Position numbers and translations under genes: made by a program
Part shown: positions 59,018-63,754 of the stretch, one piece after another
Position numbering within the stretch: the first letter of the stretch is position 1
Layout: each line of letters begins with the position of its first letter
The notes under the pieces: model-generated
What the model was told of the DNA's origin: nothing
The model's database searches: none
The model's input: only the letters and a program-made list of their open reading frames with translations
Origin: a bacterium
Lineage (GTDB): Bacteria > Bacteroidota > Ignavibacteria > Kapaibacteriales > UBA2268
DNA: 64,000 nt
Reading direction: 5' to 3'
NCBI GenBank assembly: GCA_030431515.1
Contig: JAUIIX010000003.1
Coordinates: 62,001 to 126,000, forward strand

Positions 59018-59091
59018 GCACCCGTAGCTCAACTGGATAGAGCATCTGACTACGGATCAGAAGGTTTGGAGTTCGAATCTCTTCGGGTGTA
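59018..59091 (+). tRNA. tRNA-Arg (anticodon ACG)
   Basis: A cloverleaf can be drawn: acceptor GCACCCG with CGGGTGT (first pair G-U), D arm GCTC…GAGC, anticodon stem TCTGA/TCAGA with loop CTACGGA (anticodon ACG), and T loop TTCGAAT. CCA is not encoded. It is followed by a terminator-like hairpin and then an integrase remnant, which marks it as a probable integration site. Confidence 0.93.
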
Positions 59092-59100
59092 CTAAAAATC

Positions 59101-59244: not shown

Positions 59245-59562
59245 CTATTTTGTGGTAATTTTGTTTAAAATCTCTTTTGATTTTTGATTGTCTTGGCTGT
59301 TGTAGTGAGAAATTGTTGTTTGAATATTTGCATGCCTCACTAATTTTTGTGTTTCAAATGGTGTTGCTCCACTTTCTACTATTTTTGTGGCATAGTATTT
59401 CCTGAAAGCATGAAGTTTTACATTTTTTTCTATACCTAATTTTTTCATTGCTTTTGTTAATACTCCTGAAATATATCTTAATGAGCTGGGCTTGTAATCA
59501 AATAATGTTTTTCTGCGTGGGGTATATAATTCTTTACAGATATTTAATGCTATATCATTCAT
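59245..59562 (-). pseudogene. Truncated tyrosine recombinase (integrase C-terminal remnant)
   Basis: 105 aa that cover only the C-terminal catalytic part of a phage-type integrase: HAFRKYYATKIVESG (HxxR box), KLVRHANIQTTISHYN (His box and Tyr nucleophile). The SAM-like and core-binding domains, the first catalytic Arg and the Lys are missing; intact enzymes are about 300-400 aa. It lies 154 nt beyond tRNA-Arg and reads toward it, as expected for an element inserted at the tRNA 3' end. I saw no second copy of the tRNA 3' end within the window. Confidence 0.85.
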
Positions 59563-59638: not shown

Positions 59639-59667
59639 TTGACTTTTAAAATCTTTTATTATTTTTG
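59639..59667 (+). promoter_or_regulatory. TTGAC-N16-TATTTTTG promoter of the alpha/beta hydrolase
   Basis: TTGAC begins at 59639 and TATTTTTG lies at 59660-59667. The -7 ends 27 nt before the ATG. Confidence 0.5.
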
Positions 59668-59694
59668 TAATTATTGAATAATAATTTATAAAAT

Positions 59695-60468
59695 ATGGAA
59701 CTAAACAAAAACTATAAAAAGAAAAATAATAAGACAATTGTTTTTATTCACGGTAACTCTTCATCTTCTAATGTTTTTCAATCAATTCAAGATTCTGAAC
59801 TATCATATAGCACACTAACTTTTGATTTACTCGGGCATGGGAATTCTCCAAAAAGTAAAAATATAAAAGATTACTCAATTCTTAACCATTGCAAACTTTC
59901 AATTGAATTAATTAATAGTATTGAAGGAGATAAGGTTCTCGTTGGTAATTCTTATGGTGGACATATCGCTATAGAAATTGCTGAAAAAATAAATAACTTA
60001 AAAGGACTAGTTATCTTTGGTACTCCTCCAGTTAAAAAACCATTAAATTTTGATGAAGCGTTTTCTGCAAATGATGCTTTACCTACATTTTTTTCTGAGA
60101 AACCAGAATTGGAGCAAATCAAAAAAGCAATTGAAGTATGCACAAAAAATCAAAATGTTAATGATATATTAGTAGATGATTTCATTAAAACAGATTCTAA
60201 AGTTAGAGTTGCGATAGTTGATGATGTCAGCAATCCAGATGTCTTTCAAGATGAATATTCTATATTTTATAATTTAAATATTCCTAAATTAATTTTGCAA
60301 GGTGAATTTGACCCTTTAATTTCTTTAGATTATATTAAAATCGTAATAGATGAATCTCATAGTGATTTCAAATTGATTAAAGATTGTGGACATTATATTT
60401 CTTTAGAAAAACCAGAAGAGTTTTTAAATATTATTAAAGAATTTGGAACTAAATGTTTCGATGTTTAA
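59695..60468 (+). CDS. Alpha/beta hydrolase coupled to a LuxR-type regulator
   Basis: 257 aa alpha/beta-hydrolase fold enzyme. The oxyanion segment is VFIHGNSSSS, nucleophile Ser86 is in VGNSYGGH, acid Asp206 in LQGEFDPLI and His233 in DCGHYISLEKP. There is no signal peptide, so it is cytoplasmic. The substrate is not predictable. Its stop overlaps the start of the LuxR-type gene at 60461, so the two proteins are made together. That suggests the enzyme makes, modifies or destroys a small molecule the regulator senses (inference). Confidence 0.88.
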   Translation: MELNKNYKKKNNKTIVFIHGNSSSSNVFQSIQDSELSYSTLTFDLLGHGNSPKSKNIKDYSILNHCKLSIELINSIEGDKVLVGNSYGGHIAIEIAEKINNLKGLVIFGTPPVKKPLNFDEAFSANDALPTFFSEKPELEQIKKAIEVCTKNQNVNDILVDDFIKTDSKVRVAIVDDVSNPDVFQDEYSIFYNLNIPKLILQGEFDPLISLDYIKIVIDESHSDFKLIKDCGHYISLEKPEEFLNIIKEFGTKCFDV

Positions 60469-61192
60469 TAGTGAAAAAATATTATATTTAGAATCAATCA
60501 AGCAATTATATCGTTTATCAAAACTTTATAAAAAAGACTATAAATTGTTTCGAGAAGTAGCAAATTATTATCCTTTTTCAATAACTATAAATGATATTAA
60601 TACATTGGATATTTCTTTTGCAAATCCAACAATTTCTAAATGGATGGAGTTTGATAAAAGTGAAATTGAAGATAAAGGATTCCCTTTAATCAAAAGTATA
60701 AGTGATATCAATTTTTTATCACATGCTTTAAAAACAGTTCGGTATTTTGAGAAAAATAAAATTATTGATAGTAACTGTTCTTATTTTCAAAGAGTGAAAC
60801 TTTCAGGGAAGATGGACTATTTGTTATCTTATAAAACATTTTTAGATAAAACTAATTATATTACAATGGGTTATAAGTTAAGTTTGTTCGAGTCTGTCGA
60901 TAATTCTGCAAGTAAAGCACTCGATGAATTTAATGAGGAAAATGGATTGTTTCTAAGATATTTCTCAATATCAAAAAGAGAAAAAGAGATTCTTAAATTA
61001 CTGTCATTAGGAATGTCAAACAAACAGATTAGTGATATTCTTTTTATTTCGCCAAATACTATTAGAACACATAGAAATTCAATAAATAGAAAATTAGATA
61101 TTAAGAATTTTAGAGATATTATAAAAGTATCTAAAGCATTTGAACTTTTTAATACTTATGACAATTTATTCAAATTTCCACCAATCCTATAA
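60461..61192 (+). CDS. LuxR-type regulator with PAS-like sensor, copy 1
   Basis: 243 aa from ATG 60461 (MFNSEKILYLESI…); the frame extends to a TTG at 60443, but the ATG fits the 8-nt overlap with the hydrolase gene. The N-terminal 160 residues form a PAS/GAF-like sensor with the shared segments PFSITINDINTLDISFAN and YFQRVKLSGKMDYLLSYKT. The C-terminal 65 residues are a GerE/LuxR helix-turn-helix (SISKREKEILKLLSLGMSNKQISDILFISPNTIRTHRNSINRKL). No receiver domain. It ends in a 6-bp convergent overlap with copy 2. Confidence 0.85.
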   Translation: MFNSEKILYLESIKQLYRLSKLYKKDYKLFREVANYYPFSITINDINTLDISFANPTISKWMEFDKSEIEDKGFPLIKSISDINFLSHALKTVRYFEKNKIIDSNCSYFQRVKLSGKMDYLLSYKTFLDKTNYITMGYKLSLFESVDNSASKALDEFNEENGLFLRYFSISKREKEILKLLSLGMSNKQISDILFISPNTIRTHRNSINRKLDIKNFRDIIKVSKAFELFNTYDNLFKFPPIL

Positions 61193-61900
61193 CTCACCAA
61201 TCAATTGAAAAGCATCAGCAAATCTAATTAAATCATGTATTTTATTACAATCTATTTTTCGATTTATGTTTTCACGATGCTTTTTTACTGTATTTTCAGA
61301 AACATAATAAATTTCAGAAATTTCCTTTGTACTATTTCCATTTGCTAAAAGTTTTAATATTTCTTTCTCTCGTTTAGTAAGCGATTGAAATTTTTGCCAA
61401 GCGTTTATATCAGAAAAAGTATTTTCTAATTTATTATTTAAAAAATTTCCTGCTGTTCCCAATTCATTTAAATTGAATGTGTAATTTAAAAAATTATTTT
61501 CATCTAAAATTATTTTATTAGTTAAAAGCCATTGCCATTTATTTAATATTAATATTCTTTGGAGGTAACTAAAAACATTTTTATCATCATTAATAAAATT
61601 GTAACTTTTTAATTTTGGCATATAGTTTTCAAGGACTTTTTCATCGGAAATATTATATATATTTTTAATTATTTTATTATATTTTATTTTTTCTTCTAGC
61701 ATTAAACTTAATTTTGATTTTGATGAATTATTCGCCCAAGACCAACTCAAATCACTTCTATTATTAATATGAATATAAAAATTTAATTGATTTGAAATAC
61801 TAATAAATTCAGAATTATCATTTAAAAATAATTTACTTAAATTATAAACTTGGAATTGATTTAACAAAACGTTTTCTTTTTCAGTAAAAATATTTTTCAT
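61187..61900 (-). CDS. LuxR-type regulator with PAS-like sensor, copy 2
   Basis: 237 aa, same architecture as copies 1 and 3. The sensor part has FYIHINNRSDLSWSWANNSS, YLQRILILNKWQWLLTNKIILDE and NELGTAGNFLNNKLENTF. The helix-turn-helix is SLTKREKEILKLLANGNSTKEISEIYYVSENTVKKHRENINRKI. Its last about 85 residues are almost identical to copy 3 at both protein and DNA level, while the first 120 differ strongly. Its ATG overlaps the copy 3 stop by four bases, so both are in one operon. Confidence 0.85.
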   Translation of the reverse strand: MKNIFTEKENVLLNQFQVYNLSKLFLNDNSEFISISNQLNFYIHINNRSDLSWSWANNSSKSKLSLMLEEKIKYNKIIKNIYNISDEKVLENYMPKLKSYNFINDDKNVFSYLQRILILNKWQWLLTNKIILDENNFLNYTFNLNELGTAGNFLNNKLENTFSDINAWQKFQSLTKREKEILKLLANGNSTKEISEIYYVSENTVKKHRENINRKIDCNKIHDLIRFADAFQLIGEL

Positions 61901-62598
61901 AACTCGCCAATTAAATAAAAAGCATCAGCAAATCTAATAAGATCATGTATTTTATTACAATCTATTTTTCTATTTATATTTTCACGATGTTTCTTTACTG
62001 TATATTCAGAAACGCAATAAATTTCAGAAATTTCCTTTGTACTATTTCCATTTGCTAAAAGTTTTAATATTTCTTTCTCTCGTTTAGTAAGCGATTGAAA
62101 TTTTTGCCAAGCATTTATATCAGAAAAAGTATTTTCTAATTTATTGTAAAGATAATCTCCAACAAAACTTAATTCATTGATATTGTATGAGCAATTAAGA
62201 TAAACATTTTCTTCTAATATTATCTTATTAGTAAGTAACCATTGCCATTTATTATTCAAATACATTCTTTGAAAGAAGTTACAAATTGAACTTGCATCAT
62301 CTGTAATATTATAATTATGAATTATACTTCTGTAATTATTTACAATATTTTTATCTGATAAATTTATAATTTGTTTATATTCAACATCTTCACTGCTTTG
62401 ATATCCTATAACAGTATATGAAGAACTATTTCCCCATATCCAATCTAAACTATTGCGTGAATTAAAATGAATATAGAATGAAATATTTTCGACAAAATTA
62501 TAAAAGTCATGTATATTCGACATATACATCTGTTTTAATTTTAACAGTTGCATATTATTAAATACAAACTCTTCTTTTTCTGAAAATGCTTTTCTCAT
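61897..62598 (-). CDS. LuxR-type regulator with PAS-like sensor, copy 3
   Basis: 233 aa from ATG 62598 (MRKAFSEKEEF). A longer frame starts at 62643, but the -7 element at 62610-62603 shows transcription begins at about 62598, so the ATG is the right start and the mRNA is essentially leaderless. The sensor segment is FYIHFNSRNSLDWIWGNSSS, FFQRMYLNNKWQWLLTNKIILEE; the HTH is SLTKREKEILKLLANGNSTKEISEIYCVSEYTVKKH. A 20-bp palindrome lies about 49 nt upstream of the ATG, which could give autoregulation. Confidence 0.85.
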   Translation of the reverse strand: MRKAFSEKEEFVFNNMQLLKLKQMYMSNIHDFYNFVENISFYIHFNSRNSLDWIWGNSSSYTVIGYQSSEDVEYKQIINLSDKNIVNNYRSIIHNYNITDDASSICNFFQRMYLNNKWQWLLTNKIILEENVYLNCSYNINELSFVGDYLYNKLENTFSDINAWQKFQSLTKREKEILKLLANGNSTKEISEIYCVSEYTVKKHRENINRKIDCNKIHDLIRFADAFYLIGEL

Positions 62599-62602
62599 AA
62601 TA

Positions 62603-62633
62603 CAAATATATAAAAAATTATAAAATATTTCAA
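62603..62633 (-). promoter_or_regulatory. TTG-N20-TATATTTG promoter of the LuxR copy 3-copy 2 operon
   Basis: On the minus strand TTG (62633-62631) and TATATTTG (62610-62603) are separated by 20 nt. The -7 ends 4 nt before the ATG, giving a leaderless transcript. Confidence 0.6.
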
Positions 62634-62646
62634 TAAAACTCAAAAA

Positions 62647-62666
62647 AATACGCTATAGTGCGTATT
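62647..62666. promoter_or_regulatory. Palindromic operator AATACGC-N6-GCGTATT, copy 1
   Basis: A perfect 7+7 bp inverted repeat, 20 bp in total, the size of a lux-box. Its last bases overlap the -33 TTG (62665-62667) of the plus-strand promoter. Its centre is about 43 nt upstream of the predicted start site, the position of a class II activator site. It is also about 59 nt upstream of the LuxR copy 3 start site. Confidence 0.65.
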
Positions 62667-62695
62667 GACTTATATTTATCAATGCCTTAATTTTG
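62665..62695 (+). promoter_or_regulatory. TTG-N20-TAATTTTG promoter of the small membrane-protein gene
   Basis: TTG at 62665-62667 and TAATTTTG at 62688-62695, with 20 nt between. It ends 35 nt before the ATG at 62731. Confidence 0.7.
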
Positions 62696-62730
62696 TGTTT
62701 TGAAGAATATATAGAAATTTGAGGATTAGA

Positions 62731-63099
62731 ATGAAAATTATTAAATTTAAAAAAGACAAAATTCTTAATTTTACTTTAACCTTTCTATATATTATTTCAA
62801 TAATAATAATTTTTGCAATCCCTTTAATTTCTACTATACTTTGGATAATGTATATCATTTCATTAGATTTTGATTTTATTAATGGATTTGGAAAAGATAT
62901 ATATGGTTGGCAAAGTGATAGTTTTGATAGAGCTATGGGTAGTGATATTAATTCAAATATTAATAGTTGGATAAAAATTATATTAATAATTGGTGTACCA
63001 TTTATTATTTATACTTTTTCAAAACATTTGATTAGATTTTACAAAAAAAACAAGAAAAGAATTAAAACAGTTCAAAATAGTTCAAAAAATACGCTATAG
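62731..63099 (+). CDS. Small two-helix membrane protein under the palindromic operator
   Basis: 122 aa from ATG 62731 (MKIIKFKKDKILNFTL…). The first hydrophobic helix is at about residues 13-44 (long, may be two), then a polar loop DFINGFGKDIYGWQSDSFDRAMGSDINSNINS, then a helix at about 84-102 and a basic tail. The extra-membrane loop is likely outside the cytoplasm. I do not recognise the family. Its stop codon lies inside the second palindrome, so the downstream repeat was placed right at the gene's end. Confidence 0.7.
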   Translation: MKIIKFKKDKILNFTLTFLYIISIIIIFAIPLISTILWIMYIISLDFDFINGFGKDIYGWQSDSFDRAMGSDINSNINSWIKIILIIGVPFIIYTFSKHLIRFYKKNKKRIKTVQNSSKNTL

Positions 63100-63152
63100 T
63101 GCGTATTGTCTCATATTAATCAATGCCTTAATATTGTGTTTTGAAGAATATA
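63084..63152. repeat. 69-nt operator-promoter repeat, copy 2
   Basis: Second copy of the 69-nt repeat, 441 nt after the first. The palindrome is identical (63088-63107), and the -7-like element is degenerate (TAATATTG at 63129-63136). No gene starts within 180 nt downstream, so the copy may be a worn promoter, may drive the gene at 63335 with a long leader, or may be only a second binding site. Confidence 0.88.
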
Positions 63153-63334: not shown

Positions 63335-63754
63335 ATGTTAAGATTATTTCTAATTATTATGCTCGCTAGTATTGTATTAAAGTCAAATGTTTTTGAACAG
63401 GAATTTACTGATTCAACAGGTCTTAAGTATATTGAATATAAATCATATTCATCTGTAAAGTTAAATTACATGAGTTTATTACAAAATGATATTGATGATG
63501 GAATGAAAGATTACTTTGGTTTGGGAATATCTGAAAGAAGTAAAAATTTTATAATAGAGTTTGAATTGAATTTTAATAGCAGTGATTTATCATTTGGTTC
63601 ATTAATAATAAGTTATATTAATAATTGGGTTGATAATAAAAGCTATGCTCTTGGAGGAGGTATGGGTATTGAATATTATAAATTACATTCTAAGATTGAT
63701 AAGGGATTTCGAGAAAATTCCGAGTTTGTGAATATTGAAAATAATCAGGGCTAA
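63335..63754 (+). CDS. Small exported protein of unknown function
   Basis: 139 aa with a signal peptide (MLRLFLIIMLASIVLKSN) and beta-rich mature part with alternating polar/aromatic residues (FGLGISERSKNFIIEFELNFN, LGGGMGIEYYKLHSKI), which may be an outer-membrane or surface beta-structure. It is probably made with the next gene, whose ATG is 1 nt after its stop. The gene ends rather abruptly (NIENNQG). I do not recognise it. Confidence 0.65.
   Translation: MLRLFLIIMLASIVLKSNVFEQEFTDSTGLKYIEYKSYSSVKLNYMSLLQNDIDDGMKDYFGLGISERSKNFIIEFELNFNSSDLSFGSLIISYINNWVDNKSYALGGGMGIEYYKLHSKIDKGFRENSEFVNIENNQG

Follow-up and report, generated by a model that had tools for sequence, protein, structure and literature searches.

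This analysis concerns a cluster of regulatory genes near the right end of a 64,000-nucleotide window (assembly GCA_030431515.1, contig JAUIIX010000003.1, positions 62,001 to 126,000) from a bacterium of the UBA2268 lineage, order Kapaibacteriales, phylum Bacteroidota. An alpha/beta hydrolase gene is followed by the gene of a LuxR-type regulator, LuxR-A, with an overlap of 8 nt that is confirmed by the open reading frame (ORF) coordinates. Two further regulators, LuxR-C and LuxR-B, are homologous to one another, coupled through an overlap of 4 nt and convergent with the hydrolase-LuxR-A pair, the ends of LuxR-C and LuxR-A overlapping by 6 nt; this is the layout described in the initial annotation. 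The module is real and recurrent, and inverted repeats placed over predicted promoters accompany it. The features of the locus are listed below.

59018..59092, + strand: tRNA-Arg (ACG), left border of the locus
59245..59562, - strand: C-terminal fragment (105 amino acids, aa) of a tyrosine recombinase/integrase (Pfam Phage_integrase, E 5e-11)
59639..59667, + strand: predicted promoter of the hydrolase-LuxR-A operon, TTG-N18-TATTTTTG, without an operator
59695..60468, + strand: alpha/beta hydrolase, 257 aa, AidH-like (Pfam Abhydrolase_1; Protein Data Bank neighbour by sequence and fold; family alignment)
60461..61192, + strand: LuxR-A, PAS-LuxR regulator, 243 aa (GerE 1.6e-17; tree)
61187..61900, - strand: LuxR-C, PAS-LuxR regulator, 237 aa, 59% identity to LuxR-B (GerE 2.6e-18)
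61897..62598, - strand: LuxR-B, PAS-LuxR regulator, 233 aa, ATG at 62598 and stop at 61897 (Pfam; AlphaFold2 model)
62603..62633, - strand: predicted luxR-B promoter, TTG-N20-TATATTTG, ending 4 nt upstream of the ATG
62647..62666, + strand: operator 1, AATACGC-N6-GCGTATT, overlapping the -33 TTG (predicted from repeat and promoter geometry)
62665..62695, + strand: predicted promoter 1, TTG-N20-TAATTTTG, toward the small membrane protein gene
62731..63099, + strand: small membrane protein, 122 aa, without a Pfam family match
63088..63107, + strand: operator 2, same sequence as operator 1, covering the stop codon of the small membrane protein gene
63106..63136, + strand: predicted promoter 2, TTG-N20-TAATATTG, toward the exported-protein genes starting at 63335
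63335..63754, + strand: first exported protein of the downstream row, 139 aa, with a signal-peptide-like start

The exported-protein row extends beyond the window and includes an OMP_b-brl_2 protein downstream. Besides the tRNA-Arg, no structured RNA was found.

Recurrence of the gene pair and origin of the locus

The hydrolase and a LuxR gene co-occur elsewhere within the order, in a sample of the phylum, in named genomes and on a plasmid. In each genome the scans scored no more than a limited set of candidates, so the counts that follow are lower bounds. Hydrolase homologues came from profile searches; a scan with peptide patterns back-translated from the single protein gave none, the patterns probably being unconserved. 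Among 123 genomes of the order, a profile of the LuxR N-terminal domain matched one other genome, that of Ignavibacteriae bacterium HGW-Ignavibacteriae-4, where a hydrolase (44% identity) adjoins the LuxR gene. In a third member of the family (G016), the hydrolase gene (33%) and that of a PAS_3-type LuxR converge, and it was these two genomes, along with the window's own, that gave the best matches when the order was searched with the hydrolase only. The same kind of search across 395 genomes of the phylum returned, besides the window's genome, only two (G188 and G317), both with a convergent PAS_3-type-like LuxR beside the hydrolase. A PAS-LuxR gene is adjacent in all five of these hydrolase matches. 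A scan of named genomes led by the LuxR found the hydrolase (36-43% identity) directly upstream of a LuxR gene in several Flavobacteriaceae, the carriers being Arenibacter algicola, Flavobacteria bacterium BBFL7, two Lacinutrix, two Nonlabens ulvanivorans records and Winogradskyella. Among plasmids, the hydrolase alone gave a single Bacteroidota match, in Hymenobacter tibetensis (NZ_CP094671.1), where a hydrolase-LuxR pair, a LuxR gene facing it, a CTTACCCACAATTGGGTATTG site and an exported PKD protein repeat the architecture of the window. This copy lies near a recombinase gene, which indicates that the module can move.

The Legionella and Rhizobium plasmid matches inspected had no annotated LuxR, a Streptomyces match had no LuxR relative nearby, and no such hydrolase was found at about 45 more distant LuxR loci. 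Broader LuxR matches in the phylum (tandem triples, family f35) had neither hydrolase nor operator nearby, and a viral collection held no full-length relative. At four loci of one Bacteroidota family (L152, L154, L156 and L158), PAS-LuxR genes stand in tandem pairs or triples, with no hydrolase or operator close by.

In a tree of 64 rows, the three regulators of the window and LuxR-D, the only other full-length paralogue in the window's genome (contig C133), fall within a clade of 13 rows with support of 100/100. Ten of the 13 are linked to a hydrolase; the unlinked ones are LuxR-D and two genes that stand first on a short contig. LuxR-A groups with hydrolase-coupled LuxRs of Flavobacteriaceae (support 89/87).

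It had been proposed that the locus was acquired next to a tRNA bearing an integrase scar. The tRNA-Arg and the integrase fragment are real, but neither an attachment-site pair nor a clean empty site was found, and the window holds no second copy of the tRNA-Arg 3' end. The locus sits between these features and the exported-protein genes and has a G+C content of 0.21-0.25, below most of its surroundings. The module is missing from the two genomes of the same genus that were searched. One relative (G001) keeps the neighbouring cluster of ATP-binding cassette (ABC), UPF0014 and dUTPase genes in another context, and for this reason offers no clean empty site. Gain by transfer is plausible given the patchy distribution, the grouping of LuxR-A with Flavobacteriaceae, the low G+C content and the integrase fragment.

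Predicted folds of the regulators and the hydrolase

The label "PAS-like", given initially to the N-terminal domain of LuxR-A, holds and fits LuxR-B and LuxR-C equally. All three have the make-up of PAS-LuxR regulators, with an N-terminal PAS fold and a C-terminal GerE helix-turn-helix (HTH) in 230-250 aa. For them Pfam listed only GerE and weaker HTH matches, without Autoind_bind. The AlphaFold2 model of LuxR-B (predicted local distance difference test, pLDDT, 90.7) is made up of a PAS domain and a LuxR HTH, and in the structural comparison that had been suggested for the sensor domain, its Foldseek list was led by VqmA and EL222. PAS chains align to the model at Z of about 11-12 over 100-110 residues, including the fatty-acid-binding PAS of RpfR (Z about 11). 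VqmA is the PAS-LuxR quorum receptor for 3,5-dimethylpyrazin-2-ol (DPO), and PimM is another PAS-LuxR regulator. Like LuxR-B, VqmA combines an N-terminal PAS with a C-terminal LuxR HTH, but the two share only 14-15% identity and a low overall TM-score, the latter because their domains are placed differently. We therefore note a shared architecture and make no claim of a shared ligand; LuxR-B shows no sign of DPO specificity. The window module is set further apart from VqmA by its hydrolase partner and its Bacteroidota promoter type. A reading of the locus as a defence system was rejected, as its PADLOC matches come only through the HTH.

The full catalytic triad reported for the hydrolase is present: Ser86, Asp206 and His233 align with Ser102, Glu219 and His248 of AidH, and the triad is invariant across eight hydrolase homologues in the family alignment. 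By profile, AidH is the best solved match (E 1.2e-34, 123 bits), followed by the next family at 61 bits and RsbQ at 49. It is also the best fold match of the hydrolase model (pLDDT 91.9), with Z 33 over 253 residues against 28.6 for the next. AidH, from Ochrobactrum, is an N-acyl homoserine lactone (AHL) lactonase of the alpha/beta-hydrolase fold, in which Tyr160 hydrogen-bonds the lactone oxygen and whose activity on AHLs is strongly lowered when this residue is lost (PMC3532132). Common to AidH and the window hydrolase are the Ser/acid/His triad, the HGNSSS and GTPP motifs and the cap region. The two are nevertheless only 23% identical, the acid is Glu in AidH and Asp in the window protein, and only the latter is coupled to a PAS-LuxR gene.

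Operator, promoter geometry and putative targets

Two copies of a perfect 20-bp palindrome had been reported beside the regulators. The two copies are indeed identical but the palindrome is not perfect, the sequence AATACGC-TATAGT-GCGTATT being a 7+6+7 inverted repeat. Both lie within a duplicated 98-nt segment of operator plus promoter (82% identity), and because they share it the two operators are not independent. The last TT of the repeat and the next G form the TTG of a -33 element, which is followed after exactly 20 nt by TAATTTTG or TAATATTG; the consensus of the Bacteroidota -7 box is TAnnTTTG (PMC10620806). In geometry alone, this is the arrangement of a LuxR-type class II activator site, with an inverted repeat of about 20 bp over the -33 element at fixed spacing. 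A divergent TTG-N20-TATATTTG precedes luxR-B, so operator 1 could act on this gene too.

Within the window there are 7 operator matches with at most 3 mismatches against 1.6 expected, the two exact copies being the only strong ones, and a joint scan for repeat and -7 box returned just the two known sites. Genome-wide statistics were derived from pattern searches of the 3.55-Mb genome, which holds seven ATACG-N8-CGTA sites: two in the window, two by LuxR-D, one on contig C51 before a row of outer-membrane, lipoprotein and OmpA-like genes, one about 4 kb to the right of the window (C19:129929) before exported-protein genes, and one intragenic. This number is not above a reversed-pattern control (13 against 11 strand-counted matches). 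It is the placement of the operators, rather than their number, that departs from chance. A -7 box with at least five of the six bases of TAnnTTTG lies exactly 21 nt past the repeat at 8 of the 13 sites listed, for a chance expectation of 0.014 per site. The fitting sites come from six genomes and comprise both window sites, the C51 site and one each in HGW-Ignavibacteriae-4, Winogradskyella immobilis, a Saprospiraceae metagenome-assembled genome (MAG), Arenibacter and Nonlabens. The 21-nt geometry is also seen at two more sites of the Winogradskyella and Saprospiraceae genomes, one of them before an exported-protein gene. Two outcomes that would have refuted the core of the initial reading were checked and did not arise: the hydrolase and LuxR genes occur together elsewhere, and the operator accompanies these regulators in other genomes. 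The pattern search in relatives mostly gave matches in regulator-free genomes, which were taken as chance.

Some relatives have TACC-N8-GGTA in the same geometry, with a full -7 box in Nonlabens and weaker ones (4 of 6 bases) in G188 and on the Hymenobacter plasmid. In a small sample, the recognition helix reads V/I-K/R-x-H-R-E/N in carriers of TACG sites and V-H/S-T-H-R-K in carriers of TACC sites; it is suggestive that these residues may track the operator type. Lacinutrix and Winogradskyella also have repeated AAATACGTAG-NN-CTACGTATTT-like palindromes (G489:C31:173286, 173619 and 174063; G485:C77:53008 and 53242), apparently of another family than the window operator.

The genes downstream of the operators mostly encode exported or surface proteins, including proteins with type IX secretion system (T9SS) tails, DUF5723, DUF4189, outer-membrane protein barrels and FG-GAP proteins. 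In HGW-Ignavibacteriae-4 (G097:C32, locus L117:8921-10433) the operator-promoter faces ORF193, which has no assigned family, and a 299-aa S-adenosylmethionine (SAM) methyltransferase. It is possible that this pair is a signal synthase under positive feedback; the methyltransferase may resemble the PhcB family of fatty-acid methyl ester synthases. Related methyltransferases occur in 7 of the 123 genomes of the order, those inspected being without LuxR relatives nearby.

Two side observations concern surface proteins. LuxR-D (L063:6213-11171) is divergent to two FG-GAP surface proteins with IPTL-CTERM-like tails, its two ATACG-N8-CGTA sites lying between it and these genes. To the right of the window (L005:11124-16458), several exported proteins share a C-terminal tail of IPITxxIPIWxWW, a transmembrane segment and basic residues, which in sequence is reminiscent of IPTL-CTERM sorting signals.

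A candidate signalling module and its alternatives

In known LuxR-type biology, class II activators are HTH dimers on an inverted repeat of 20 bp whose centre lies near -43. The gene order, the recurrence of the pair, the clade, the predicted folds and the operator-promoter geometry described above lead us to lean, with somewhat more confidence than doubt, toward a PAS-LuxR one-component small-molecule signalling module in which the hydrolase either sets the ligand or relays it. Occupancy of the PAS pocket by this small molecule would allow a LuxR dimer to bind the operator, which overlaps the -33 element and is centred at about -43; from there the dimer would act as a class II activator by recruiting RNA polymerase. 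The targets would be the exported and surface-protein genes and the small membrane protein, and probably also luxR-B, with operator 1 acting in the opposite direction. The translationally coupled hydrolase would cleave an ester or lactone, either the ligand or its precursor, and so set the ligand level; we favour ligand turnover because the hydrolase is kin to AidH. A more tentative extension, which we consider possible but would not bet on, is a cell-to-cell system of the Bacteroidota built on an ester or lactone signal that is not an AHL and that the bacteria make themselves. Paired PAS-LuxR receptors would sense this signal, a co-evolved AidH-like hydrolase would remove or mature it, and it would turn on surface-protein operons via a phylum-wide operator resembling a lux box.

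Several observations weigh against this signalling module. The residue corresponding to Tyr160 of AidH, which binds the lactone ring, is Ala in the window hydrolase and most clade members. The LuxR-D sites and the site at C19:129929 break the 21-nt rule, and the Saprospiraceae operator adjoins a LuxR outside the 13-row clade. No clear operator was found at the BBFL7, L173 and G317 loci, and the TACC repeats of Lacinutrix, which have T-runs behind them, may be terminators. In the window's genome, no synthase for the ligand was identified. The SAM methyltransferase of HGW-Ignavibacteriae-4 is absent from it and is not linked to LuxR genes in other genomes, and was rejected on these grounds as a universal synthase of the module.

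Alternatively, the hydrolase may dock on the PAS domain and switch the regulator as one half of a bipartite sensor, in the manner of the RsbQ-RsbP or PqsE-RhlR pairs. Homologues of RsbQ and RsbP are encoded by adjacent hydrolase and PAS genes in many genomes, as in the window pair, and RsbQ binds the PAS domain; their outputs are PPM phosphatases, histidine kinases or GGDEF cyclases, and a 2011 survey lists no LuxR output (PMC3183031). Translational coupling and co-occurrence would suit a stoichiometric complex, and RsbQ is a detectable relative of the hydrolase. However, at 49 bits it is a weaker one than AidH at 123, the window protein being AidH-like rather than of the RsbQ subfamily and its module belonging to the Bacteroidota with a LuxR HTH as output. 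The full triad is kept in all members, which points toward catalysis, though a kept triad is compatible with docking. We regard docking as rather doubtful, yet a serious contender. Classical AHL quorum quenching, in which the LuxRs would sense the AHLs of other bacteria and a lactonase would clear them, draws on the fact that the nearest solved relative of the hydrolase is an AHL lactonase. LuxR-LuxI systems, too, resemble the window in pairing a LuxR-type HTH with an inverted repeat of 20 bp whose centre is near -43. Their receptors, though, carry an autoinducer-binding domain, which Pfam did not find here and in whose place the LuxR-B model has a PAS fold, and their luxR genes adjoin a synthase, whereas here a hydrolase gene takes that position. 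No LuxI-type synthase is among the locus genes scanned, a genome-wide LuxI search not having been made. Lacking the tyrosine, the hydrolase is not classed as an AHL lactonase, and from its sequence the substrate is probably not an AHL. Quenching of this kind is accordingly improbable.

It could also be asked whether the palindromes might be common intrinsic terminators or the debris of repeats, and the hydrolase a housekeeping enzyme whose gene lies next to the others by accident. T-runs do follow the repeats on the minus strand, the Lacinutrix repeats (TACCC) look terminator-like, and the genomic count of the pattern stays at control level. On the plus strand, however, the repeats are followed by TTGACTT and TTGTCTC in place of a T-run, and no leftward-transcribed gene reaching either site was found in the window; the terminator reading of the window palindromes was rejected for these two reasons. 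The recurrence of the 21-nt spacing in six genomes, and of the gene adjacency across independent lineages and orientations, argues against debris as well, and we regard this explanation as very improbable.

The locus had been put forward as a candidate undescribed signalling module. This stands in part: PAS-LuxR regulators and bipartite hydrolase-PAS modules are known kinds, but a LuxR output is not listed in the 2011 survey, and searches of the open-access literature turned up no account of a hydrolase-PAS-LuxR pair in Bacteroidota. What is new is the combination of an AidH-like hydrolase with a PAS-LuxR output. If the signalling reading is true, hydrolase-PAS sensing of the RsbQ/RsbP kind, whose hydrolase fold is common to plant D14 and KAI2, would be extended to direct transcription-factor output. 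Bacteroidota have many LuxR solos and very few known ligands. This module allows a receptor, a candidate enzyme for the ligand, an operator of fixed promoter geometry and target genes to be named together, and in culturable carriers (Arenibacter, Lacinutrix, Nonlabens and Winogradskyella), so that the question of the ligand becomes directly testable with reporters and purified hydrolase.

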